IMG/VR virus record: IMGVR_UViG_3300036466_000332
Coordinates: 1 to 64,000 of that record
Origin: a virus
Reading direction: 5' to 3' (one strand)
DNA: 64,000 nt
Under the pieces are notes generated by a model that was not told the origin of the DNA, ran no database searches, and saw only the letters and a program-made list of their open reading frames with translations. Below, one piece after another: positions 4,389-43,601 of this stretch (positions are counted from its first letter, which is position 1; each line of letters begins with the position of its first letter). The position numbers and the translations under genes are program-made.

Positions 4389-4423
4389 CCCCGAGGGATT
4401 ATACCCTCGGGATTATTTTTTTT
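4389..4423. terminator. Bidirectional terminator
   Basis: Stem CCCGAGGG / CCCTCGGG (4390-4397 with 4404-4411) followed by a T tract. It lies between convergent genes ending at 4376 and 4422 and can serve both. Confidence 0.8.
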
Positions 4424-5396
4424 ATACTTCTTTTCCTTTTTGTCTCCATTGCTCTCTATAGTGTTCTGGCATATTTTCTTTTTTATCTTCTACAAACTCA
4501 TAAGAATTATTTAATGAGTCTGTAACTACACCTTCATCCATATTCAAATTAATGTCACCAAGTGTTTCTATGTTTTTCTTTCTAGCATCACTTATTGTGT
4601 GTCCTTCTTCATCTTGTACTTCTATCCAGTAAATCTCTTCTTCTAAATCAAGATGCATAACTTCTTTTAAATCTTTATCTTTGTATCTTAAGTTAGCAGC
4701 AGATGAACCATAATTTATTCCATACTGTTCTTCTAGGTCAGCGTTTATATTTCCAGAACTTTTTTTCTTAGCTTTTTCTGGATCACATTTTGGTTTATTT
4801 TCATCTAGGGCTTTATTTGGTTTTGGTTGTGTTGAGTTTGCTATATCTTCTTTAGTTCTTTTTCTGGGTTCAGTTCTTGTTGGTCTTCTTTTAGTTTGTC
4901 TTCTATTTTTTTCTGGGTTGGTTAAAAAAGAACCATTTAACTGTGGTGTGTCAGCTGAATCATTGGAGAAAAATTGAGCATATGTACCACGCATATCACG
5001 AGGGTCATTACCCACACCACCAACATCCTTTTGGTTGAGTTTCTTTTCTTTCATTTCAAGATCAATGATATTTTTAGTGATTGAAGATTTTTTATCTATA
5101 GCAGTTATTTTGGAAGTTAAAAGAGAAGTTAGAGTCTGATACATATCCTTTTCATATACCAGTTGATTTCCGTGTTCTTTTCTTACCTCACGTATTCTAT
5201 GTTTAACTTCATTGGCTGCTGAGTCTATTTGTTTTTGTACTTTATTTAAATCCTTAATAGATTTTTTAAATCTTTTTTCTATATCAGATTTTTCGTTTTT
5301 CTTTTTAGGTTCTAGAACTTCGACATACTCCATATAATCATCCATGGATTTATTGGAGTTTAATCCAAGTTCTCTCATACCTTTATTAAGAATCAT
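4422..5396 (-). CDS. Hypothetical charged protein
   Basis: A 324-residue protein with AAGGAGGAG before its ATG. Residues 30-125 are strongly charged and heptad-like, suggesting coiled coil. Residues 160-220 are a low-complexity Lys/Arg/Pro/Thr region (RRQTKRRPTRTEPRKR) typical of disordered nucleic-acid-binding or head-internal proteins. The C-terminus is acidic. No family recognised. A late-type AACA box lies at 5425-5436 on the same strand, so a virion or assembly role is possible. Confidence 0.7.
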   Translation of the reverse strand: MILNKGMRELGLNSNKSMDDYMEYVEVLEPKKKNEKSDIEKRFKKSIKDLNKVQKQIDSAANEVKHRIREVRKEHGNQLVYEKDMYQTLTSLLTSKITAIDKKSSITKNIIDLEMKEKKLNQKDVGGVGNDPRDMRGTYAQFFSNDSADTPQLNGSFLTNPEKNRRQTKRRPTRTEPRKRTKEDIANSTQPKPNKALDENKPKCDPEKAKKKSSGNINADLEEQYGINYGSSAANLRYKDKDLKEVMHLDLEEEIYWIEVQDEEGHTISDARKKNIETLGDINLNMDEGVVTDSLNNSYEFVEDKKENMPEHYREQWRQKGKEV

Positions 5397-5756: not shown

Positions 5757-5791
5757 TATCCACAACAATTTTTTGAAGGAGAGTGAATAAA

Positions 5792-8605
5792 GTGAGCAAC
5801 GAAAATATGTTACTTCTTAATAACTATTTTGATAGAAATAAAAATAGACACCATATATTAATGAAGAATGTAGATACTGAGGAAAAGAAAGTTTATAAAA
5901 TAAATAACCCAACTATACCTATATATAAAGTTAAAGATGATGTTGAGGTGCCAGATTATTTTATGGAGTATCGTGATATAGAAGACCTTGAAAAACATGA
6001 TGTCTCATATAGATGGAGAGAATGGGACCTTGCAAGATTAATAGGTTATGATGGTTTTACAAATGATGTAAGAAAAAAGCATATTAAAAAGGAGCAGATT
6101 TATTTAGATAAAAGATTATTCGGAGCTGATGTTAGATTAACAGATAGAACTATTATGGACTATCTAGATTCAATGGGTAAAGAAGATAAAGAAGGTAATA
6201 TAACTTATCCTGATGAACCACCAATTAAAAATTTACACATAGGTTTTTTTGACCTTGAGTGGGATATTAGAATAGATAGTGATGATGAAGCTGATTACCC
6301 TATATACCTTATGACGTATTTTGATTCTAAAGAAAATGTTTGTCACACTTTTTATCTTGAAGATAAAAATTATAAATACCAAGATAAACTTCTTAAAGAT
6401 AAGGGTCATAAAAAATTTATCAAGGAATTGAAAAAAGAACTCGAAGAAGATTTTAGTAAACTATCCTTAAAAAATGCTAAGGAAGAACAGCAGGTAAAAG
6501 AGACAATATTCAAAAGATTAGATAATATTAAATATGAGCTTAAATCTTACAGCAGTGAACAGAGAATGATTCGTGATTTTTATAAAATGATAATCAGAGA
6601 TTATATGCCTGATTTTCTATATGCATATAACACCAGTGCAGATATAGGACAAACTCTAAACCGTTGTGATAAATTAAATATCAAACCATCTAGCATTTTC
6701 TGCCACCCTGATGTCGGAGATTATGTTGACTTTAGAATTAGAGATAACACCTTCCCACCAGAGGATAGAAAGCATAACTATGAATGTGCATCTTATACCA
6801 AGATAATGGATATGTTTATAACCTATCATGCTATAAGGGGTGCATCATCTTTTACAAGTTATAAGTTAGATACTGTTGCTAAAGATAATCTTGGTGTTGG
6901 TAAACTAGACTATTCTCATATCTGTGACCACATTGGTGATTTACCTTATAGAGATTTTTATACCACAACTAAATACAACATTCGTGATGTTTTGGTTATG
7001 CCATTTATAGAGGATGTTACACAAGATACTAAGACAATGGTATCTAAACGGTTTACAACAAGAACAGAATACGATCAGCTTTTTACTTCTATGGCTCAAG
7101 TTATGAATGCTTTTTTCCATATGGGAGAAAGAAATGGTCAGATACTCTCTAATGAAGTTAATAAACTTCTTTTAAAGTTGTCCGATAAACAGGTAGAGAT
7201 CCTAAAGGAAGAAGACAGAGTAACCTATGATATTATTATGTCTATTAAAAATGGTGATAGAATCCAGGGTGGTTTATGTACTGACCCAAATAAAGTTACA
7301 AGAAAAGGGATAAAACTTTTACCACTATTAAATAATAAGAAAGTATTTGAAACAGTAATTGATGCAGATGCATCTTCTATGTATCCTAATAATTTGATAT
7401 CCCACAATATAACTAAGACAACTTTGGTTGGTAAGTTAATATGGATAGATGAATTTCATGACTTAGTTTATAAAGAAACTAAAACAGTAAATGGTAGGTT
7501 GATAATAAGTAGGGATGATTGGGCAGCTATTAAAAAGATGCGTTCTAAATCAAATAATAATAAGTTCCAAAGAAATAAGTTTCTTAAAATGTATAGGGCT
7601 ATCAAATATTTTGATTATAAAGAACTTGCTAATAAGTCTATCGATATAGATATCATGAGTGTACTTGAAGATTACGGTTTTAAAGAAGAAAAAGAGTATA
7701 TGCCAAATTTAAGAAAGATATTCAAATACTTTAATGGTTCTATGATAGATAAGGAAGAGTTTGAAAAAGATTTCCCAGATAAAGATAAAAAGGACTTAAA
7801 ACACACTATAGAAATAATCCAAATCTATATTAAAAACATCACATCAAGAATAGGTGAAAGGGCTATCATTTCTTTAATCCAAAGAAACATTATAGAAATA
7901 GGAGAGATATTTTTTAATCTTCCGAATCTAACTGATTTAGATTTTATTTTAAATAATATATCTCAAAAGGAAGTTAGTCTGGTTGATTCACATGATGACT
8001 ATGAAGTAAAAATAGTTAAAAACAAATTAAGACCATTACTTTCTATTTTGTCTCAGCTTGATTCATCTATGTTAAATGATAAAGATTTAGATACCGGATT
8101 ATATAAAACAAACGGTATGTTTTATATCGGGGATAAAAAGAGAAATTATATCAGATATACTGGCACTGTTATAGAATACTTTCTTGAAAGTGGGAAAAAT
8201 CTAACAGATGTCTTCGAAATAGATGAACCAATATATACTGATAGAAGAGGTAACGTTGCAAATTACATTTATGAAGAACAAGTCAAAGTTAAAGAGATAC
8301 CAGATATTAATGGTTCAGTCATTTTCAGTGGTGAAGTTGATGAAGAAAATGTTCGTAAATTGAAGTTAACAGATAGGTTATCTAGGAGGTTAGACTTTAA
8401 AACTAAAAGTGGAGAAATAATAACCATTAATTTAAACCCTAGAATGGTTCCCTGTATAAGGGAGATAGAGTCATTACATGTTAAGATATGTAAAACAGAA
8501 CATGATAGTATTTATGATGTGATAATAAGATCTGAAATACCAATAGAAAAACCACACGAAGATAAATTTATATATAACCAATACATGAAAATACTAAATT
8601 ACTAA
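5792..8605 (+). CDS. Family B DNA polymerase, N-terminal half (exonuclease and motif A only)
   Basis: A 937-residue protein. GTG at 5792 is chosen because GAAGGAG lies ten bases upstream; the GTG at 5783 is too close to it. Exonuclease motif I is seen near residues 154-156 (FFDLEWD), motif II near 280 (YNTSADIGQ), motif III near 395 (YNIRDV). Polymerase motif A is DADASSMYPNNL near 524. Motif B (K-x3-N-T-L-Y-G) and motif C (DTDS) are absent, although 410 residues follow motif A. Both missing motifs are encoded in the gene at 28981-33974 on the other strand. The two products are expected to assemble into one replicative polymerase with 3'-5' proofreading. Confidence 0.85.
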   Translation: MSNENMLLLNNYFDRNKNRHHILMKNVDTEEKKVYKINNPTIPIYKVKDDVEVPDYFMEYRDIEDLEKHDVSYRWREWDLARLIGYDGFTNDVRKKHIKKEQIYLDKRLFGADVRLTDRTIMDYLDSMGKEDKEGNITYPDEPPIKNLHIGFFDLEWDIRIDSDDEADYPIYLMTYFDSKENVCHTFYLEDKNYKYQDKLLKDKGHKKFIKELKKELEEDFSKLSLKNAKEEQQVKETIFKRLDNIKYELKSYSSEQRMIRDFYKMIIRDYMPDFLYAYNTSADIGQTLNRCDKLNIKPSSIFCHPDVGDYVDFRIRDNTFPPEDRKHNYECASYTKIMDMFITYHAIRGASSFTSYKLDTVAKDNLGVGKLDYSHICDHIGDLPYRDFYTTTKYNIRDVLVMPFIEDVTQDTKTMVSKRFTTRTEYDQLFTSMAQVMNAFFHMGERNGQILSNEVNKLLLKLSDKQVEILKEEDRVTYDIIMSIKNGDRIQGGLCTDPNKVTRKGIKLLPLLNNKKVFETVIDADASSMYPNNLISHNITKTTLVGKLIWIDEFHDLVYKETKTVNGRLIISRDDWAAIKKMRSKSNNNKFQRNKFLKMYRAIKYFDYKELANKSIDIDIMSVLEDYGFKEEKEYMPNLRKIFKYFNGSMIDKEEFEKDFPDKDKKDLKHTIEIIQIYIKNITSRIGERAIISLIQRNIIEIGEIFFNLPNLTDLDFILNNISQKEVSLVDSHDDYEVKIVKNKLRPLLSILSQLDSSMLNDKDLDTGLYKTNGMFYIGDKKRNYIRYTGTVIEYFLESGKNLTDVFEIDEPIYTDRRGNVANYIYEEQVKVKEIPDINGSVIFSGEVDEENVRKLKLTDRLSRRLDFKTKSGEIITINLNPRMVPCIREIESLHVKICKTEHDSIYDVIIRSEIPIEKPHEDKFIYNQYMKILNY

Positions 8606-28980: not shown

Positions 28981-30420
28981 TTAATAAAAGTCTATAACAT
29001 TGGTAACATGTCTTCTTTTTTTGCTATCTCTAATAGTTATTAAACCTAATGGATCAATGACCGGTGCAATAAGGTTTGATGTTTGTGTTATAACTGGTGT
29101 GGTATTTAAGAAATCCAAAACAAAATCCGGTATATAGGTTATATCGTATGGTAGTGCTATTTTTTTTATATCCCTGTATCTCTTCTGGATGGAAGATAAA
29201 TTATCAAGTCTAAATCTTTTTAATTCAGATTCCTTTGCACCTCTCTCAATTAGTTTCTTTTTAATCTTTAAACCTTTTCTTTTCATAAATTCATTGGAAA
29301 CTAAACGGAATGTATCTGTATAAATGTCTAATACATCCATAGCCATTTTCTCTATACCCTGATCATATACATCGTTGATTTTAAGATATAAATATTCACC
29401 GTCATTTATGACCATGATATTATTATCCATCATGTCTACTACTTTCTTTGTTTTATAAAGGTCATATTGGCTCCTAAACTTAGAGTTAAATTTCTGTACT
29501 ATGACATCCAGTAAATCTTGATCTAAATCTATATCGTCAGATATCTTTAAAAAAACAGAGTTATTTTTTACTGAGACTTCACCGCGATACATTAAACCAG
29601 ATTTACCTTTTTCTTTTAATTCTATGAAATCCAACTCTTCATAATTGAAATTTATTCTATCTGATATGTCAACTCTGTATCCATTTAATTTATCTTCGTT
29701 TGATTCTATCATTCTATCTATTATGTGATAGGATAGTTTCTTAAACATCTCAGGGTAATCTCTTTTCATACCCTCTATATCTGTCATATCTAAATAAGCT
29801 GTATAAAAGGTTGCTGGTGCCTCTATCTCATCATCTAAACCTAAATCATTCCATAACTTTATTGCAGTAACTCTGTGGTCTGAGATAGGGAAGTCTTCGA
29901 ACACACCATTTAGCTTATGGACATCAAAGAATTCTTGTGCAGTTTCACCCTTCATCATTTCTAAAACTTCATTATCTATATCTCTTAATTTATTTAGTAT
30001 CCTGTCTAACTTTATATCCTTTTCTCTCATGATATCATTTTCAACTATGTCCTCAACATTACTGCATAACTTCTGGTTAAAATTTGATTTAGTAAAAGAT
30101 AAACCCTTAACGTCCAAGTCAGCAACTTCAAAAACATTTCCTTCTTTAAGTTTATTTAATCCTATATAATTTTTCTTTCTAGATGTTAAAACGAATCTTT
30201 TATAGAGGTACTCGTTTTTCATATTGATTCTTGATTTATATCTTTCCAAAACATTAGTGTGGTCCTTATATCTTTCCAAAGAATAATCCACACAACTTAC
30301 AGCAACCATTGTGGAAAGATTAGAAAGAGTAAACCATATCTCGTCTTCAGACAAATTTTTGTATCCTTTGTTATAAAGATCGTTTATATCATTATTCAGT
30401 TCATCTATAGCAACCATATT
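28981..30420 (-). CDS. DNA polymerase B C-terminal half, exon 3 (palm end and thumb)
   Basis: 479 codons counted from AAT at 30420 to the stop. The first residues NMVAIDELNNDI continue motif C (DTDS) of exon 2, as IYV/NVD-type residues do in family B polymerases. Near residue 78 the thumb motif SRKKNYIGL is seen, then VKGLSFTKSNFNQKL, equal to the 'KKRY..KG' block that contacts primer DNA. The first in-frame ATG (30417) has no ribosome site and a TAA lies two codons before AAT, consistent with a splice junction rather than a start. The rest is a large thumb and C-terminal extension. Confidence 0.8.
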   Translation of the reverse strand, partial: NMVAIDELNNDINDLYNKGYKNLSEDEIWFTLSNLSTMVAVSCVDYSLERYKDHTNVLERYKSRINMKNEYLYKRFVLTSRKKNYIGLNKLKEGNVFEVADLDVKGLSFTKSNFNQKLCSNVEDIVENDIMREKDIKLDRILNKLRDIDNEVLEMMKGETAQEFFDVHKLNGVFEDFPISDHRVTAIKLWNDLGLDDEIEAPATFYTAYLDMTDIEGMKRDYPEMFKKLSYHIIDRMIESNEDKLNGYRVDISDRINFNYEELDFIELKEKGKSGLMYRGEVSVKNNSVFLKISDDIDLDQDLLDVIVQKFNSKFRSQYDLYKTKKVVDMMDNNIMVINDGEYLYLKINDVYDQGIEKMAMDVLDIYTDTFRLVSNEFMKRKGLKIKKKLIERGAKESELKRFRLDNLSSIQKRYRDIKKIALPYDITYIPDFVLDFLNTTPVITQTSNLIAPVIDPLGLITIRDSKKRRHVTNVIDFY

Positions 30421-31471
30421 CGTTTATACCCTCGGTCTCCCGATATTTAGAAACTTGGGACTAGACTATATCATGATCATATAACCTTAAAGGTTACTTA
30501 GATCCCTTCCATTTCCCTCACGGTACTCTACTCAGTTATCATCAGTCAGTCACCCAACTGAATCCCTTTTCGATAGTCGTTGAACCTTTAGTCGAGATAT
30601 CTTAAAAATTATAGTTTTCGGAAATATTAACATATGATTCTTTCTCTCTTATTCTTTTTACAAATTTCCAGAACTTTTGTCTTTCTAATGTTTCTGAAGT
30701 ATCAAAGTTTAACGTGTCGGCTATTTCTCGGGTTGTAAGATTTTTTTCTAATAAATCACAAACTGACACCACCATGCTTTTCCAATTGTACTTATATTTG
30801 TTTTTTCTATGGTGTATATCATAATTTGCATATATGCCCTTATGAATGGTACCAGTTTTAATTTTTTGTATAGTGGTTAACTCCACTTTATCTTTGAATT
30901 TTGGATATAAATCCATCGGATTTAACCCTTTTTCTAACCCTCTACAAATATAATGTACATCGTCATCAGTCAATACACCTTGATCTTTATGTTGTGTGAA
31001 TGTCCCTTGTTTTATCGAATGGTGTATATTTTCTTTTTGTGTCAACCATCTCAAATTATAGATATTATTGTTACCCCTATCTAAGTCTATGTGATCGACC
31101 ACATAGTCATTTGGGTTATCTATTGGGTCATAGGTGTTTAACATCACCCGATGCACGTAGAAATTTCTTTTATTATTGTTTTCATCTATAGGTAATCTCA
31201 CATACTTATAGCCGGCATTCTTTATATTTTCTTTCAATACTTCACCAGTATTGTAATTTTCTATAATTCCGTGTTCTGAAATAATGTAATTCCCGTATAT
31301 TTTGTACCCATCGACAAATTCAATATCTTTATAAATGATAAACAAATCACTCCTTTGTCGATATCTCGATTACTTGGCTGCTGATTGTCTTATAACTTTT
31401 CAGCTATAACAGTTCCCAGCAATTAGAAAGGTTTTTCACATAATGTTTCCACTATGTGCTCCTATAAATTA
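30421..31471 (-). mobile_element. Group I intron 2 in DNA polymerase, with HNH endonuclease gene
   Basis: 1051 bases. The 5' splice follows GACTCT (codons Asp-Ser of DTDS); CUCU can pair with GGAG ten bases on, giving the U-G pair at the splice site. A GAAA-capped hairpin follows. Core signatures on the minus strand: AATTGCTGGGAAC, GACAATCAGCAGCC (31375-31390), TTCAACGACTATCG (30571-30586) and GATATAGTC (30463-30476). The last intron base is G at 30421. Joining gives DTDS-NMVAID, a continuous motif C. The endonuclease gene sits between the core elements. Confidence 0.8.
30602..31345 (-). CDS. HNH homing endonuclease (intron 2)
   Basis: 247 residues, same strand as the intron. The HNH core is YVHRVMLNTYDP, VVDHIDLDRGNNNIYNLRWL and TQKENIHHSI near residues 65-112, as in I-HmuI-type intron endonucleases. 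The C-terminal half contains helix-turn-helix-like segments (LTTIQKIKTG; LTTREIADTLNF) for DNA binding. Expected to cut intronless polymerase genes so the intron spreads. The reading frame is intact. Confidence 0.85.
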   Translation of the reverse strand: MFIIYKDIEFVDGYKIYGNYIISEHGIIENYNTGEVLKENIKNAGYKYVRLPIDENNNKRNFYVHRVMLNTYDPIDNPNDYVVDHIDLDRGNNNIYNLRWLTQKENIHHSIKQGTFTQHKDQGVLTDDDVHYICRGLEKGLNPMDLYPKFKDKVELTTIQKIKTGTIHKGIYANYDIHHRKNKYKYNWKSMVVSVCDLLEKNLTTREIADTLNFDTSETLERQKFWKFVKRIREKESYVNISENYNF

Positions 31472-32200
31472 AGAGTCTGTATCAATCAATAAAATCAAAC
31501 TTCTCATTATATTTTTAATTGTACCCTGTGTATTCGTGGTGATTTTGTTTGCCTCTTCAATAAGATCCCCGCCATACCAGTAATATCCACACAATATCTG
31601 TTCTGTCATATCCTGTAATTTATCGATTTGTTTTTTAACAGATTCCGGTGGTTCATAAGGGTCAACAAAAACACTACCTTCATCTTCTTTTCTATTTTTA
31701 TCAATTGTATCTAGGGACTCTTTAAATAAACTTTTAACTTCGTCAATATTTAAAAAGGCGTCTATATTATTTTTATAATATATTTTTATTAAAGATTCTA
31801 AAGATATCTTATTTATTTTTCTAAAGACACCATCGTATGCATAGTAGTTTTCATCAATACCAATATGCTCCATTACTTTTTGTATATAAATTCCTTTTAA
31901 CTTTGAATCTCTTTCTTTTTCGTTGTTCCAACTAATACCATTTTCTTTAGCTCTCCTTACAACATTAGCAAACAATACCCCATAATAATCGTCATCTTCT
32001 TTTATTATTTCATCCAATGTGTAAATTAGTGCATCATATTTTTTAGGGAAATAACCACCCAAAGCAGCTTCAACAGTTAAAGCAGAAATAGATATTATAC
32101 TTCTACCTTTAGAAGTTATTGCTGCACCCAAATCAGGAGAAAACAATTTACAGTACATATTAATTAAAACACCGTATAAGGTGTTCATAATAATTTTTGT
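31472..32200 (-). CDS. DNA polymerase B C-terminal half, exon 2 (motifs B and C)
   Basis: 243 codons from ACA at 32200 to TCT at 31472. It opens with TKIIMNTLYGVL, polymerase motif B (K-x3-N-T-x-Y-G), followed by AAITSKGRSI, and ends with LILLIDTDS, motif C with the catalytic Asp pair. The apparent GTG start at 32203 is really the intron end. Exon 1 ends YDLRQKD, so splicing gives RQKD-TKIIMNTLYG, matching the usual R/Q-x-x-x-K-x3-N-S-x-Y-G spacing. The whole spliced product would be about 862 residues (140+243+479). Confidence 0.82.
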
Positions 32201-33554
32201 CACTGTTGCTATTCATAACAAATAGCTTAGTGGACTATATCATATCCGTACATTCTTAAACAGGGGGCGATTCATTTGAAAAATGTAAAAATTAATACTG
32301 AGGAAACTTTATTTGATTATCACATTGATAAGGATGGTTTCATTTATGGACAATACGATAGACCTTTAACTATATATAAAAATGGTAAAGGTGAGTTTGT
32401 CAAAATGTATCATGAGGGGTCTTCAAAATCTTTTCATATACATGAGCTAATTGCGTATACTTTTTTGGAATATGAAAAGAGTGAAGACACAATAATATCT
32501 TATTACCCTAATAAAAAAACCAAACTGAACAACGTGAAGATATCCAATGTTTTCGATTACGTTGAAAATAGACATGGTTTCAAAAAACCCAAATTTTTAA
32601 AATACGATGATAAAAAATACACCAAATATATCGTGGATATAGATGGTCGTGTATTCAACACCGAAACATATAAAATATTATCTGAGCATCAAACCCCTCA
32701 GGGATATGTCTTTGTGACATTAAATTTAAAGACAAGAATGATGCATCGTATTTTATATAGCACATACGTTGAACCCATGGATCCTGATCTAGTTATAAAC
32801 CATAAAGACGGCATTAAGTCAAACAATACCCTCAGTAACTTAGAGTAGGTGACCACAAGAGAAAACTCAATGCACGCTATCAATACTGGGTTAATTGAGA
32901 CATTTGGGCCCGAAACAATAGAACCTATTTTGACCTTATACTATGGTGGGGAGGGAAGAAAACATATCTCAGAAAGATTAGGTATCAATTATAATACGGT
33001 TAGGTATATAATAGAAAAACATGCCAACCATTCTCCCGACTTTATTAACAGAACTTCTTTCAATTTATTAGAAGTTGAAAAAATATTCAAATTAAAAGAA
33101 AAAGGCTATTCATATTCTGAAATCTCAAAAAGAATCGATCACAAAAATATTTCCACCATAGGGTATACATTGAATAATAAAAATTTCCAAAGAATGTTTA
33201 AAAATGATTAGGATTTGCCTGTTTCCATTTAATCACATGGGTTTTTAGTGAACCTTTCGAGGGCTGTACTATATCTAAAAAGATACCCTAGTCTCTGAAC
33301 CCACACCATGATGACCTATATAAAAGTCATTTTAGATGTTCGGCTGCTGATTATCCATTATAACTCTCCTTAGGGCACCATCCTTAATTGGGTGGTGTTT
33401 TTATTTCACCATAGAGAATCCCCTAACTTGTTTCTGACTTTCGTCACCTTTGTATGGGTTTTCACCGCATATTTTGGTACAGGGGCGTTAAGAACTCCCA
33501 GCATTTAAGGCAATTTTAACCACACTGTTTCCAGTATGGTAGGACACACTTTTT
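32201..33554 (-). mobile_element. Group I intron 1 in DNA polymerase
   Basis: 1354 bases. The 5' exon end AGGAT can pair with GUCCU eight bases on, with the U-G pair at the splice site; then a perfect nine-pair GAAA-capped hairpin ACCATACTG / CAGTGTGGT. Core signatures on the minus strand: AAATGCTGGGAG, AATCAGCAGCCGAA (33340-33353), GTTCAGAGACTA (within 33281-33300) and GATATAGTCC near 32232-32245. The last base is G at 32201. Splicing restores motif B. The stretch 33212-33554 has no gene and holds most of the core. The endonuclease gene inside is on the opposite strand. Confidence 0.78.
32276..33211 (+). pseudogene. HNH homing endonuclease, antisense in intron 1, broken by an amber codon
   Basis: A TTG start with GGGGG upstream opens 190 codons ending in NHKDGIKSNNTLSNLE, then TAG (32846-32848), then in the same frame VTTRENSMHAINTGL and 105 more residues. 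In HNH endonucleases of this kind the text is NLEWVT..EN..HA, so TAG replaces a Trp TGG by one base. The N-terminal half carries two HNH-like copies (FHIHELIAYTFLE and MHRILYSTYVEP). The C-terminal part has helix-turn-helix-like repeats (ISERLGINYNTV; SEISKRIDHKN). It is opposite to the intron transcript. Probably inactivated; readthrough cannot be ruled out. Confidence 0.8.
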
Positions 33555-33974
33555 ATCCTTTTGTCTTAAATCATACAACTTACCAAGTATGGGGTCATCA
33601 CCTTCTGTTAAGTAGTAATTACCCAACTTCTTTATCTCAGCTCTATCATCAAACAATCTCATCTCACCACTAACAACTGGTGGTGTTTTGATATCTTGGT
33701 TTAAAAAGAATGTGCCATTTTCAACCATAAGATAAGGGGTTGAATAAACATCTTCAATAAAATCCAACGCATCCAATTTATAGTTTTTACCTCGAACTGT
33801 ATTGATTAATTCTACGCTTCTATTTACAAACTTATCTTTAAATAATCCGTATAATTTTGTGTCATCTTCTAATTCTAATTTTCTAGAAACATCCTCTATC
33901 CAAGCGTCTCTAAAAACATCTTCATTCTCGAAATTTTTTGCAAATTCCAAATACCCTCTTGACCATCTACTCAT
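33555..33974 (-). CDS. DNA polymerase B C-terminal half, exon 1
   Basis: 140 codons from the ATG at 33974, which has AAGGAG ten bases upstream, to GAT at 33555. It encodes the start of the second polymerase polypeptide, helical and acidic (WSRGYLEFAKNFENEDVF), ending in KLYDLRQKD just before motif B. The open frame runs twelve codons into the intron and stops at 33516. In most family B enzymes this region is continuous with motif A, which here lies in the separate gene at 5792-8605. Confidence 0.72.
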
Positions 33975-33992
33975 TGACAATCATCTCCTTAG

Positions 33993-34004
33993 AACAATAT
34001 TTTA
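33993..34004 (+). promoter_or_regulatory. Late-type promoter box
   Basis: AACAATATTTTA followed by G, 55 bases before the start at 34059. It faces the minus-strand box at 34010-34021; the two would give overlapping divergent transcripts. Confidence 0.5.
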
Positions 34005-34009
34005 GCTCA

Positions 34010-34021
34010 CATTAAATTGTT
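34010..34021 (-). promoter_or_regulatory. Late-type promoter box (TG variant)
   Basis: Reads AACAATTTAATG on the minus strand, 36 bases before the polymerase C-half start. TG in place of TA/TT weakens the call. Confidence 0.35.
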
Positions 34022-34058
34022 TACGATGATAAAAAATTATCTAGGAGGTCATTATATA

Positions 34059-34490
34059 ATGGAATTGCTATCTACAAATGAAATAGAGAAACAATTGGAC
34101 GCAAAAGAAAAAGGTTTCACCAGTCTTAATAGTGTAGACGATATTCTTCTTTCTCTTCTTCTTATCAAAAAAGGTGTACCTATGACAGCTCAACTTTCTA
34201 AGAAGGTAAAAAAGAATACTGAGTTTGAAATCCCCACAATCGAAGGTCTTGTTTCAAAAGAAGACGAAGAACATAAAACATATGATATTGAACTTTTAAA
34301 ACTTACTGCATTTTTAATAGCCCAAAAACGCGGCGATGAAAACGTAAAGGTTATTGAAGAACAGTATAGTGAATTTAAATCTATGATGGATAACCTTTAT
34401 GAAGACTATGCTGAAGATGCGGCTGTAACTTTAAATGAGGTTATTGAAAAAGCAGAAAAAATTGAGAAACTCGATAAATTAGATGTATAA
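34059..34490 (+). CDS. Hypothetical acidic helical protein
   Basis: 143 residues from the ATG at 34059 with CTAGGAGGT upstream; the frame from 34017 lacks a site. Almost entirely helical, Lys/Glu-rich, with a coiled-coil-like end (VIEKAEKIEKLDKLDV). Single-gene unit between a late-type box and a terminator. No family recognised. Confidence 0.65.
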   Translation: MELLSTNEIEKQLDAKEKGFTSLNSVDDILLSLLLIKKGVPMTAQLSKKVKKNTEFEIPTIEGLVSKEDEEHKTYDIELLKLTAFLIAQKRGDENVKVIEEQYSEFKSMMDNLYEDYAEDAAVTLNEVIEKAEKIEKLDKLDV

Positions 34491-37332: not shown

Positions 37333-37367
37333 GTCCGAAAATATAAAAATATGAGGTGAGGGTTAAG

Positions 37368-39191
37368 ATGTTAGATATAGTTAATAATGGAGAAGAGATT
37401 GTAAGAGAACTTAAATTAAACATAAAAAATTATAAGCAAAAAAAGAAGTTCAGTTTAAATGATAAGGAATTTAAATTAACTATCGCTAGAGCGGGTTTAA
37501 ATGCACTTGTTTTTGATGTATTGCCCAAAGAATTGAGAGTTGAAAAATTCTTATTTTTAAAACCTGGCTCCAGCAGTAACCTAACAGAATACAAACAAGA
37601 AATCATTGATGAGTGTTTTAAACTTGGGAAAACAGTCGATGAAACCAAAGACTTAATATACGATGTTCAAGAAAAGGTAAATGAATATACATTGATATTT
37701 AATTTTAGGTTATCTGTCGATATATCATTATATGATTTTATAAAGATGATGAAAAAGTCTGATAGAATGAGAGAAATTTTAAGTGGTAATAACTTTAATG
37801 AAGAAATGAATGCCTTCGAAATAATGAGAAAGAAGGAGAAGTTATCTAAAGAAATTGAAGATTTTATTTTAAAAGAGAAGATAGATCCTATGTATACATT
37901 TCTTACTGCTGAAGCTGCTATGCGTAAACCACAGTTTCATGATATAGTGGTTGGTGTTGGTATAAGACCAAATAATAAGGATAGTGTTTACCCATTCCTT
38001 ATTAATGAAAACTGGCTTAATGGGCTCACTAATAAAGATTCCTTTTGGGCTGAAAACGATTCAGCAAGAAATGCTTTGATAATTCAGAAACTGGATATAA
38101 GAAAAACTGGTACATTCAACAAACGTTCTACTATGTTGGCTCAACCAAATTATTTAAATCCAGATCCTGATTATTGTTGTGACACTATACATTTTGTAGA
38201 AGAGAAGATAGAAGATGAAAGGGATTTCCAAAGGTTTATAGATTTGTACCATCAAGTTGATGGTAAACCCCAATTGATAACAGAAGATGACACACATTTG
38301 ATTGGAAAGAAGATATTATTAAGACAACCTTATACATGTAACAGTGACGATGGTGTCTGTCACTACTGTATAGGTGAGAAATTATATTTTGATAACCTAG
38401 AGGGTTACCATGGTGGAGAAAGAAACTTTGGTGTGGCTATCTCTAAAAAGAAAGTTGCCCCAAAAGTTCAGGGACACCTTTCTGCTAAGCATAACATTGT
38501 GGCTAAGTTATTTGATAAAGATGGTAAACCCCTAACAAGGATCAATGGTGAAAAGAACTGGCACGATTATTTTGATTTAAAATATATCAATAAGTTAGTT
38601 TTTAAAGAAGGGTTCAAAAAGAATATTGATGAAATCAGATTAATTAAAATAAAAGATAAAGGTAAAAGGAAAGCTAGATTTAGAAGGAAAATGGAAATAA
38701 AGATGGAAAACGGAGACACTATGGAATTTAAAACTAACTCTGTATTCTATACTGAAAAACCAAATATAGATTATGATACTGGGTTGGTTGATGATATTGA
38801 AAAGATTCATATTGAGATTATAAATAATCCGGTGTCCTCTGGTTATCATGAACTTGATAAGGTATTTAATAAAAACAACGGTAATATTCAAAAGGCAATG
38901 AAAGAATTGAAACACTTAATGAAAAAAGAGAAAGCTATTATCCCTTATCTTTTAATAAGAAACATAATAAGAAAAGAGGGACAAAATGAAGAGAGACCAG
39001 ATTATTCAAAGGAAAATCCAAAAGAAGAAATACTAACGATGCAGACTGCTATAAGAAACTTTAAAGAACTTGGTCTTAAACTCAATATTGGTTTCTTTAA
39101 ATCTATGCTTTCTGATTTGAGAAATTATGAAAAGACAAAACCTTCTAAATTCGATATACTATTCGAAAGTAGGAGAAAAGACAAACAATAA
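37368..39191 (+). CDS. RNA polymerase beta-prime subunit, C-terminal part
   Basis: 607 residues from the ATG at 37368 (GAGGTGAGG upstream). Near residue 324 a zinc cluster TCNSDDGVCHYCIGEKLYF matches the second zinc site of bacterial beta-prime (C-x6-C-x2-C, with a farther Cys lost or elsewhere). It is followed by NFGVAISKKKVAPKVQGHLS, the place of bacterial GVIAAQSIGEPGTQ before the trigger loop. Near residue 180, TAEAAMRKPQFHDIVVGVGI and NENWLNGLTNKD also fit. The NADFDGD catalytic motif is absent, as expected for a split subunit. Multisubunit polymerases with split beta-prime are known from phiKZ-like phages. A late-type box upstream suggests it belongs to the virion enzyme. Confidence 0.82.
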   Translation: MLDIVNNGEEIVRELKLNIKNYKQKKKFSLNDKEFKLTIARAGLNALVFDVLPKELRVEKFLFLKPGSSSNLTEYKQEIIDECFKLGKTVDETKDLIYDVQEKVNEYTLIFNFRLSVDISLYDFIKMMKKSDRMREILSGNNFNEEMNAFEIMRKKEKLSKEIEDFILKEKIDPMYTFLTAEAAMRKPQFHDIVVGVGIRPNNKDSVYPFLINENWLNGLTNKDSFWAENDSARNALIIQKLDIRKTGTFNKRSTMLAQPNYLNPDPDYCCDTIHFVEEKIEDERDFQRFIDLYHQVDGKPQLITEDDTHLIGKKILLRQPYTCNSDDGVCHYCIGEKLYFDNLEGYHGGERNFGVAISKKKVAPKVQGHLSAKHNIVAKLFDKDGKPLTRINGEKNWHDYFDLKYINKLVFKEGFKKNIDEIRLIKIKDKGKRKARFRRKMEIKMENGDTMEFKTNSVFYTEKPNIDYDTGLVDDIEKIHIEIINNPVSSGYHELDKVFNKNNGNIQKAMKELKHLMKKEKAIIPYLLIRNIIRKEGQNEERPDYSKENPKEEILTMQTAIRNFKELGLKLNIGFFKSMLSDLRNYEKTKPSKFDILFESRRKDKQ

Positions 39192-41948: not shown

Positions 41949-43601
41949 ATGAGTACATTTAAAAACTTCAATGCAACAGGAAACGAAATAGACACTAAAG
42001 AAAAAATCGGTGAGATTCTAAAAGAGATGAGTGGTATATTAGCTAAATCTTACTCTCCTTTCGGGAGCAGTTCTATCATTATTGATGAACACAAGGTGAC
42101 TAAGGATGGTTACAGTATACTGAATTCTTTAAAACCAGAAAGTGAACTTGCAGTCTGGGTCACTAATATGGTGAGGAGCTTAACAAATAAAACATTATTA
42201 ACTTCTGGTGATGGTAAGACAACAGCTGTACTTCTTGCTGAGGCACTTTTTGAAAACTTAAATGAAGTCTTTGAAGAAAGTTACCGTGGCAAAACACCAC
42301 AAGATTTTATAGGTGATGTGAACGGTTTAGGACATGCTTTAATAGACTCTTTGGATAAAATTAAGTATGTTCCAGAAAATAAAGAAGAGTTTTTGAATAT
42401 AGCTTACACTTCTTTAAATAACGATAAAGAATTAACCAATTATGTTAAAGAAGCACTAGAAGTTTTTGATGACCCAAAGGATATGAACATAGTCGCATCT
42501 ATTAATGAAGGGTCTGATAAAATCAAAGTTGATGTTTCAAAAGGTATGGACATTAGGTCTTCTTTAATGTTTGGTATTGGTAGTGCTTTAAATAATGCCG
42601 TACTTAAAGAATGTAAAGTATTTGTGGCTGGAGAAAAAATAGAATCAGTAGAACAAATCGAAAAAATATACGATGTCTTAGATTATGTTTCTGATACCAA
42701 TTCTAAACTCATGTTTATTGCACCAGAATATTCTGCAACAGCAACAAGAAAAATTAAACAAAGATTACAGAAAATGAATATGGAACAAAAAAATCTGGGT
42801 GTATTCTTTTTAAGTGTGGACAGAGGTGGTACCATGGATGGACGAGACCATTATGGAGATGTCATGGCATACCTTGGTACTGTTGTGCTTAATCTACACG
42901 ATGCTGAAGACTTTATGGATACATTTAAAGAAAACTTCAATAAATTATCGGTCGCTGACATTAAAGTGGGGACATATAGCACAACTTTCATGATTAAAAA
43001 ACGAAATAATGACCTACTATACAATGATAGGATTAGTTTGATAGAAAGACAAATGGAAAACGGTAGTCTTGAAGATAGAAAGAAAGCAACTTATAGATAT
43101 AATAAAATGACAAGTAAGGTTGCTGATATCAAAGTTGGTGGTAATATTCCAGAAGAAGCTAGAAGGATTTATTCTATGTTTATGGATGCCACACTGGCTA
43201 TGAATTATGCTAAAGAAGGTATTGTGTCTGGTATGAACACAGCAATGATTAAAACAATCAATTCATTTGAATATAAAGATGAAGGTATTGCTGAAATCGC
43301 AAATGCAATTAAAGATTCCTATAAAAAATTATTTGATGTCATTGTTGATATGTCTAGAAGAGATGTCTCAGATGATATTGTAGAAGAGATCACTCATTTA
43401 GACCCTGAAGATAAAAAGAGCATACTAAAGACATATGATGTTAAAGATGAGGAATTAACTTATACCATAACAAATCCTTTCCAATCTGAAAAGGTTATTT
43501 TATTAGCGGCATTAGAGATTGTAAAGATTTTTATTACAGCTAATCAGATTATCTTCTCAGATGTGTATGTTACAAACTATTTCGATAAAACAGGAATGTA
43601 G
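41949..43601 (+). CDS. groEL: GroEL-like chaperonin
   Basis: 550 residues, AGGGAGGA site. The N-terminus SYSPFGSSSIIIDEHKVTKD equals TLGPKGRNVVLD..ITKDG of GroEL, and TSGDGKTTAVLLAEAL near residue 80 equals the ATP-binding GDGTTTATVLA. VDVSKGMDIRSSL near 200 marks the apical/intermediate boundary. The GGM-repeat tail of GroEL is missing. Phages EL, OBP and AR9 encode single-ring chaperonins of this type that work without GroES and may fold virion or replication proteins. No GroES gene in the window. Late-type promoter. Confidence 0.88.
   Translation: MSTFKNFNATGNEIDTKEKIGEILKEMSGILAKSYSPFGSSSIIIDEHKVTKDGYSILNSLKPESELAVWVTNMVRSLTNKTLLTSGDGKTTAVLLAEALFENLNEVFEESYRGKTPQDFIGDVNGLGHALIDSLDKIKYVPENKEEFLNIAYTSLNNDKELTNYVKEALEVFDDPKDMNIVASINEGSDKIKVDVSKGMDIRSSLMFGIGSALNNAVLKECKVFVAGEKIESVEQIEKIYDVLDYVSDTNSKLMFIAPEYSATATRKIKQRLQKMNMEQKNLGVFFLSVDRGGTMDGRDHYGDVMAYLGTVVLNLHDAEDFMDTFKENFNKLSVADIKVGTYSTTFMIKKRNNDLLYNDRISLIERQMENGSLEDRKKATYRYNKMTSKVADIKVGGNIPEEARRIYSMFMDATLAMNYAKEGIVSGMNTAMIKTINSFEYKDEGIAEIANAIKDSYKKLFDVIVDMSRRDVSDDIVEEITHLDPEDKKSILKTYDVKDEELTYTITNPFQSEKVILLAALEIVKIFITANQIIFSDVYVTNYFDKTGM

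Follow-up and report, generated by a model that had tools for sequence, protein, structure and literature searches.

The window, a stretch of 64,000 nucleotides of viral DNA (positions 1 to 64,000 of the 146-kb IMG/VR record IMGVR_UViG_3300036466_000332), encodes the catalytic half of a split family B DNA polymerase of a jumbo phage. We put the probability at about 95% that this gene is interrupted by two mobile group I introns of subgroup IA. Intron 1 (32,201–33,554, minus strand; 1354 nt) lies one codon before motif B (QKD/T-KIIMNTLYG) and intron 2 (30,421–31,471, minus strand; 1051 nt) lies directly after motif C (DTDS/NMVAID). The intron boundaries, the restoration of the frame, an intron-2-minus allele, the group I core, the HNH genes, the presence or absence of introns in related phages and conversion-like footprints can all be read from the sequence. 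Each intron RNA is predicted to fold into a P1–P9 ribozyme and would self-splice, with a U.G pair at the 5′ site and omega-G at the 3′ site, to give an 862-aa subunit. The HNH proteins would act on intron-free alleles, cutting them at or close to motifs B and C, and repair of the cut allele would then copy the intron together with flanking exon. Placement at indispensable residues would fit a selfish strategy, in which imperfect loss would be lethal and the target site would be conserved between phages.

The interrupted polymerase gene

A divergent family B DNA polymerase of the AR9/phiKZ type is split in this phage, and the minus-strand gene (33,974–28,981) encoded its C-terminal half. This gene consisted of exon 1 (33,555–33,974; 140 codons ending in ..LRQKD, the last codon being GAT), exon 2 (31,472–32,200; 243 codons from motif B, KIIMNTLYG, to motif C, IDTDS) and exon 3 (28,981–30,420; 479 codons and a stop, with a divDNApol match), all on the minus strand. 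Joining the three exons gave an 862-aa frame without a stop and raised the Pfam divDNApol score to 106 bits from 68.7 bits for exon 3 alone (PF20286; cutoff 25.7), and the DNA_pol_B score to 50.5 bits from 17.9 bits for exon 2 alone. Both KIIMNTLYG and DTDS were present, and the invariant residues of the family were kept across the three open exons. The joined exons aligned, with no gap at either junction, to intronless homologues from Fusobacterium phage JD-Fnp4, Bacillus phage AR9 and Staphylococcus phage SA1; at junction 1 QKD/TKIIMNTLYG aligned with QKN/IKILMNTYYG, and at junction 2 IDTDS/NMVAID aligned with IDTDS/NFLSYE.

The first-pass annotation had placed two group I introns at motifs B and C of one polymerase gene. 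The gap-free homologues, an empty site in a sister phage and the covariance and homology evidence given below all bore this out, and the splice coordinates (33,554–32,201 and 31,471–30,421) proved to be exact. It had also stated that joining restores textbook motif spacing; the frame was indeed restored, but the distance between motifs B and C was 238 aa, in line with the 195–219 aa of AR9-type relatives and unlike that of classical family B polymerases. The open frames were correctly described as running on past the splice sites and stopping soon after: the read-through frame of intron 1 continued for 12 codons (KKCVLPYWKQCG) before a stop and that of intron 2 met a stop (TAA) at once.

A separate gene of the DNA polymerase family (phrog_3011; 5783–8605, plus strand) is taken to encode the remaining half of the polymerase; a split polymerase has been described likewise for AR9 (gp132/gp152; PMC5312081). 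Among jumbo phages, this one is related to AR9 and to the JD-Fnp phages of Fusobacterium. The window also encoded a GroEL-like chaperonin (41,949–43,601) and a fragment of a multisubunit RNA polymerase (RNAP) beta subunit (37,356–39,191), as expected for an AR9/phiKZ-like jumbo phage.

Group I structure of the two introns

Both introns had P2 hairpins, a P4 helix of UGCUG/CAGCA and a P7 helix of GACUA/UAGUC. Intron 1 was preceded by U and ended in G (..CAGUG); its P1 (33,541–33,559, minus strand) paired exon AGGAT with intron GTCCT, placing a U.G pair at the splice site, and its P7 5′ strand GACTA (33,289–33,293, minus strand) had its partner TAGTC at 32,237–32,233. Intron 2 was likewise preceded by U and ended in G (..AAACG); its P1 (31,459–31,475, minus strand) paired exon CTCT with intron GGAG, again with U.G at the splice site, its P7 5′ strand GACTA (30,574–30,578, minus strand) had its partner TAGTC at 30,468–30,464, and its P3 was CCTTTC/GGAAGG. 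The core motif AATCAGCAGCC was present in intron 1 (33,342–33,352, minus strand), where it spans J5/4, the P4 3′ strand and the P6 5′ strand, and in intron 2 (31,376–31,386, minus strand); these were the only two exact copies in the 146-kb record. The U-G splice pairs, terminal G, shared core motif and P7-like pairs that had been noted previously were all recovered. A third site resembling AATCAGCAGCC (5214–5224; one mismatch) lay inside an ORF (4422–5396), gave no model match and was taken as chance.

A P3–P9 core with the P7 G-binding helix was found in both introns, more weakly in intron 1, together with U.G in P1 and the terminal G. With their ORFs removed, the introns folded with z scores of -3.8 (intron 1) and -4.0 (intron 2) relative to dinucleotide shuffles. 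A constrained fold of intron 1 contained P1, P2 and P4–P9, with the core assigned by hand. These features point to introns of the subgroup IA type that is common in phages.

The covariance-model search that had been proposed as a check gave a positive result for intron 2 with our own model and fell below the cutoff for both introns with Rfam. The Rfam group I model (Intron_gpI, RF00028) matched the 5′ half of intron 1 locally (33,513–33,215; 20.6 bits, E 0.014 across 4227 families), and its other scores were 14.0/10.7 bits; neither intron reached the curated gathering score of 50 bits, which is a score cutoff and not a structural criterion. The low scores are probably due to the ORFs and the long P5 extension in these introns. 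An Rfam scan across the whole window and one 7-kb stretch returned no group I match. Our model, R1, covers P7–P9 and was built from 35 other phage introns collected by a 14-base motif, with double changes in 17 of its 24 pairs. It matched intron 2 at 38.7 bits (E 1.4e-5), the Herelleviridae pol I introns at 31–35 bits and an RNAP beta' intron of the sister phage at 36.1 bits. R1 gave no match to intron 1, which escapes the model because its P8 holds an ORF. Over its last 160 nt, intron 2 was 71% identical to the DNA polymerase I intron of Staphylococcus phage phiSA_BS1; identity to introns of Enterococcus phages was about 70%. The P5 region of intron 1 had 72% identity over 100 nt to the vRNAP beta intron of Staphylococcus phage MarsHill.

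A natural intron-2-minus allele was found in a sister phage (IMG/VR contig 3300017923_000003, 77.5 kb; here G002), the polymerase gene of which contained intron 1 and lacked intron 2. Its exon 2 was joined to exon 3 exactly at 31,472/30,420; in the alignment, position 31,475 of the window and the bases upstream of it, and position 30,420 and the bases downstream, became neighbouring bases, reading ..LLIDTDSNMVAIDELN.. For intron 1, no intron-free allele was found among close relatives, and the intron-free junction was provided only by distant intronless homologues. The group I identity of intron 1 is well supported, if less formally proven than that of intron 2.

The same evidence bears on three rival readings of the inserts. 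Jumbo-phage polymerases are split elsewhere, here with the other half as a separate gene at 5783, and in phages PB50 and LPJP1 the annotation gives the polymerase as two CDS, so that the three frames might be translated separately and the polymerase assembled from the pieces, the inserts being spacers that need no splicing. This is very improbable: the gene is broken in or next to catalytic motifs B and C, no clear start can be seen for exon 2 (the GTG listed for it is inside the end of the intron), the inserts carry group I cores and the intron-2-free sister encodes exons 2 and 3 as a single frame. We give almost no credence to the gene being a decayed pseudogene with insertions, as its interrupted frames and the nonsense codon in the HNH gene of intron 1 might suggest, because all three exons are open, the invariant residues are kept and the joining is in frame at homologous positions; many of the differences to G002 in exons 2 and 3 also fall at intervals divisible by three, the pattern expected of changes at third codon positions. 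Motifs of DNA polymerases are well-known sites of inteins, and group II introns have reportedly also been found in the AR9 genome. An intein is nevertheless refuted by the TAA with which intron 2 starts and by the stop after 12 codons in intron 1, and group II introns are refuted by the group I core, with its P7 and P4 elements and the covariance model match, leaving a negligible probability for either class. Group I introns are the preferred reading in each case.

Intron endonuclease genes and turnover between sister phages

Both introns contained an HNH reading frame, and these intron ORFs, one of them antisense, were absent from the first-pass annotation. Intron 2 encoded a 247-aa HNH/NUMOD4 protein in the sense orientation (30,602–31,345, minus strand; TTG start; HNH_3 and NUMOD4 signatures) in its P6 loop. 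The HNH frame of intron 1 (32,276–33,211, plus strand) was antisense to the polymerase, lay in the P8 loop and was interrupted by an in-frame TAG (32,846–32,848). The intron 1 copy in G002 differed by a single base, at position 32,846, where the codon was CAG; the frame was open and carried HNH_3 and helix-turn-helix signatures. Recoding of TAG as glutamine, which would rescue the frame, was rejected: 10 of the 103 ORFs with 180 aa or more end in TAG, and scans of the window and of further stretches gave no tRNA. In this phage TAG acts as an ordinary stop, so the copy in the window was most likely broken by a recent nonsense mutation, and intron 1 has probably been left without a mobility enzyme of its own only recently.

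What sets this finding apart is the antisense endonuclease gene. Antisense HNH genes occurred in two introns of the phage pair, intron 1 and a sister-only intron in the RNAP beta gene; in contrast, 15 insert-carrying phage group I introns drawn from the motif search all had their longest frame in the sense orientation (in one of them a frame of only 47 aa). Beyond these sister records, other viral contigs gave no close relative of either antisense HNH protein. A literature search limited to open-licence papers gave no example of an antisense endonuclease gene in a phage intron, and to our knowledge this would be the first such layout in phages. In the sister phage the antisense HNH of the RNAP beta intron was homologous to the sense HNH of the RNAP beta' intron (34%, E 9e-38), which indicates that endonuclease genes have passed from intron to intron and settled in either orientation. 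An antisense HNH gene would need its own promoter, and its RNA would be complementary to part of the intron. The late promoter of AR9 is AACA-N6-TA/G (PMC5312081). The sequence AACAAATAGCTTAG, upstream of the antisense HNH (32,217–32,230, plus strand), bore a loose resemblance to it without matching; as AACAAATAGCTT at 32,217 has TT in place of TA/TG, no AR9-like late promoter is claimed. We tentatively suggest, as a possibility somewhat short of even, that the HNH homing genes of this lineage circulate among polymerase active-site introns and are installed in either orientation, with antisense expression and interference with splicing as part of the scheme. In that case, production of the mobility enzyme and removal of the intron from the polymerase mRNA could hinder one another, which might link the two in regulation.

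The window phage and G002 were mosaics of near-identical blocks and blocks of 85–90% identity, with over half of the alignable DNA in near-identical blocks. Between 24,600 bp and 39,400 bp of the window, a block of roughly 15 kb with ~85% identity to G002, which contains the split polymerase gene, lay between near-identical stretches; this arrangement is evidence of extensive recombination between the sisters. A further contig of 194.6 kb (G001) contained the whole 146-kb record of the window at 100% identity and is therefore not independent evidence. Outside that record, G001 encoded a second RNAP beta' gene (36.2–40 kb of its contig C1) with two interruptions; one was near NGDYDGDK and was followed by a truncated HNH frame, and the other was an ORF-less group I intron scoring 64.6 bits to R1.

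Within the divergent polymerase block, a tract of 1898 bp (32,190–34,087) had one difference to G002 (32,846), with flanks of ~85% identity. It took in exon 1 and intron 1 as well as 113 bp past the start codon, extending 533 bp upstream of intron 1 and just 11 bp into exon 2. On its own this tract would not prove homing, since near-identical blocks are frequent between the sisters; it could reflect general recombination with an edge that falls 11 bp from the intron end by chance.

Two further introns were present in G002 at sites that are empty in the window's record. One, of 1054 nt with a sense HNH (G002:C1:16,910–17,963), was in the DxDGD motif of RNAP beta' (YNGDH/DGDALT), corresponding to record position 64,796/64,797; its 3′ end had 73% identity to intron 2 of the window. 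The other, of 1233 nt (G002:C1:7741–8973), was in the DD motif of RNAP beta (SKDD/APR), corresponding to record position 72,736/72,737 on the minus strand; it had a group I-like 3′ end and its antisense HNH was in the P8 loop. Three synonymous changes at the RNAP beta' site and two at the RNAP beta site lay within 7 nt of the insertion point, and further out no more than single differences separated the sisters over hundreds of bases or more. Such clustered silent changes are what a recent gain with very short co-conversion of the flanks, or its reverse, would leave, and a comparison of two genomes fits either direction.

These footprints weigh on whether the introns are still mobile. They might be group I introns that have become resident, the near-identical tract being the product of ordinary recombination between co-infecting phages; the broken HNH of intron 1 in the window and the share of near-identical sister DNA, above half, would agree with that. 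We consider this unlikely, though less so than any of the three readings above, because G002 has two introns that the window's record lacks in otherwise near-identical DNA, with silent changes bunched at their insertion points, and because the tract at intron 1 ends 11 bp from the 3′ splice site. Mobility is the preferred reading: close relatives differ in the presence of introns, with apparent co-conversion of the flanks, even though general recombination between the sisters is also frequent. A sister without one of the introns and with others elsewhere shows introns that are, to judge from this comparison, still moving between viral genomes.

Relatives and comparison with known systems

Most relatives in viral contigs had no insert at either window intron site, and a search of genome contigs returned no relative. 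Inserts with group I signatures were found at motif C in Listeria phage LPJP1 (L193; 3528–4019) and in L190 (6627–7176), both at I/DTDS, and in Staphylococcus phage PB50 (L194; 3857–4055) at D/TDS, compared to DTDS/N in the window. Motif C is a repeated target, since these relatives carry their own inserts within or beside it at other nucleotides. The DNA polymerase of MarsHill has an annotated intron further downstream (KNEY). Gene callers fragment such polymerases, LPJP1 and PB50 being examples.

The sister phages offer natural before and after pictures of polymerase active-site introns, with empty and occupied sites in nearly identical DNA and footprints at the sister insertion sites only a few bases long. 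They show how one family of introns and endonucleases comes to occupy the catalytic motifs of both DNA and RNA polymerases, and intron mobility in giant phages becomes directly testable. We infer splicing, endonuclease activity and the direction of transfer.

Introns in phage polymerase genes, their placement at catalytic residues and HNH genes in jumbo-phage RNAP introns were already known (PMC12908238, PMC11620839). Intron 2 shares its 3′ domain (71% over ~160 nt) with the pol I introns of Herelleviridae and SPO1-like phages (phiSA_BS1, Enterococcus vB_EfaH_149; I-HmuI, I-BasI), in which the endonuclease ORF is also just upstream of this domain and the host gene is also for a DNA polymerase; that gene is DNA polymerase I, whereas the two introns here are at motifs B and C of a family B polymerase. 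In the related jumbo phage PhiPA3, the vRNAP beta intron (gp210; PMC11620839) likewise carries an HNH gene at the conserved catalytic residues of a polymerase, and the sister-only RNAP beta intron (SKDD/APR) is at paired aspartates like those described for it. Compared on sequence alone, the PhiPA3 intron differs from the window introns in its gene and sites, and the HNH of intron 1 is antisense and broken. The jumbo phages AR9/PBS1 and Staphylococcus MarsHill/PB50 likewise have introns in their RNAP and DNA polymerase genes, but the endonuclease frames of the RNAP introns of MarsHill and PB50 are sense, unlike that of intron 1. Antisense endonuclease genes are known from nuclear rDNA introns, with those of Didymium (PMC9548176) encoded opposite the intron strand as in intron 1; these are eukaryotic IE introns with His-Cys endonucleases and spliceosomal introns, compared to a phage intron with an HNH gene here. 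To these systems the window adds an antisense arrangement that appears uncommon, and an unusually clear natural record of intron turnover.
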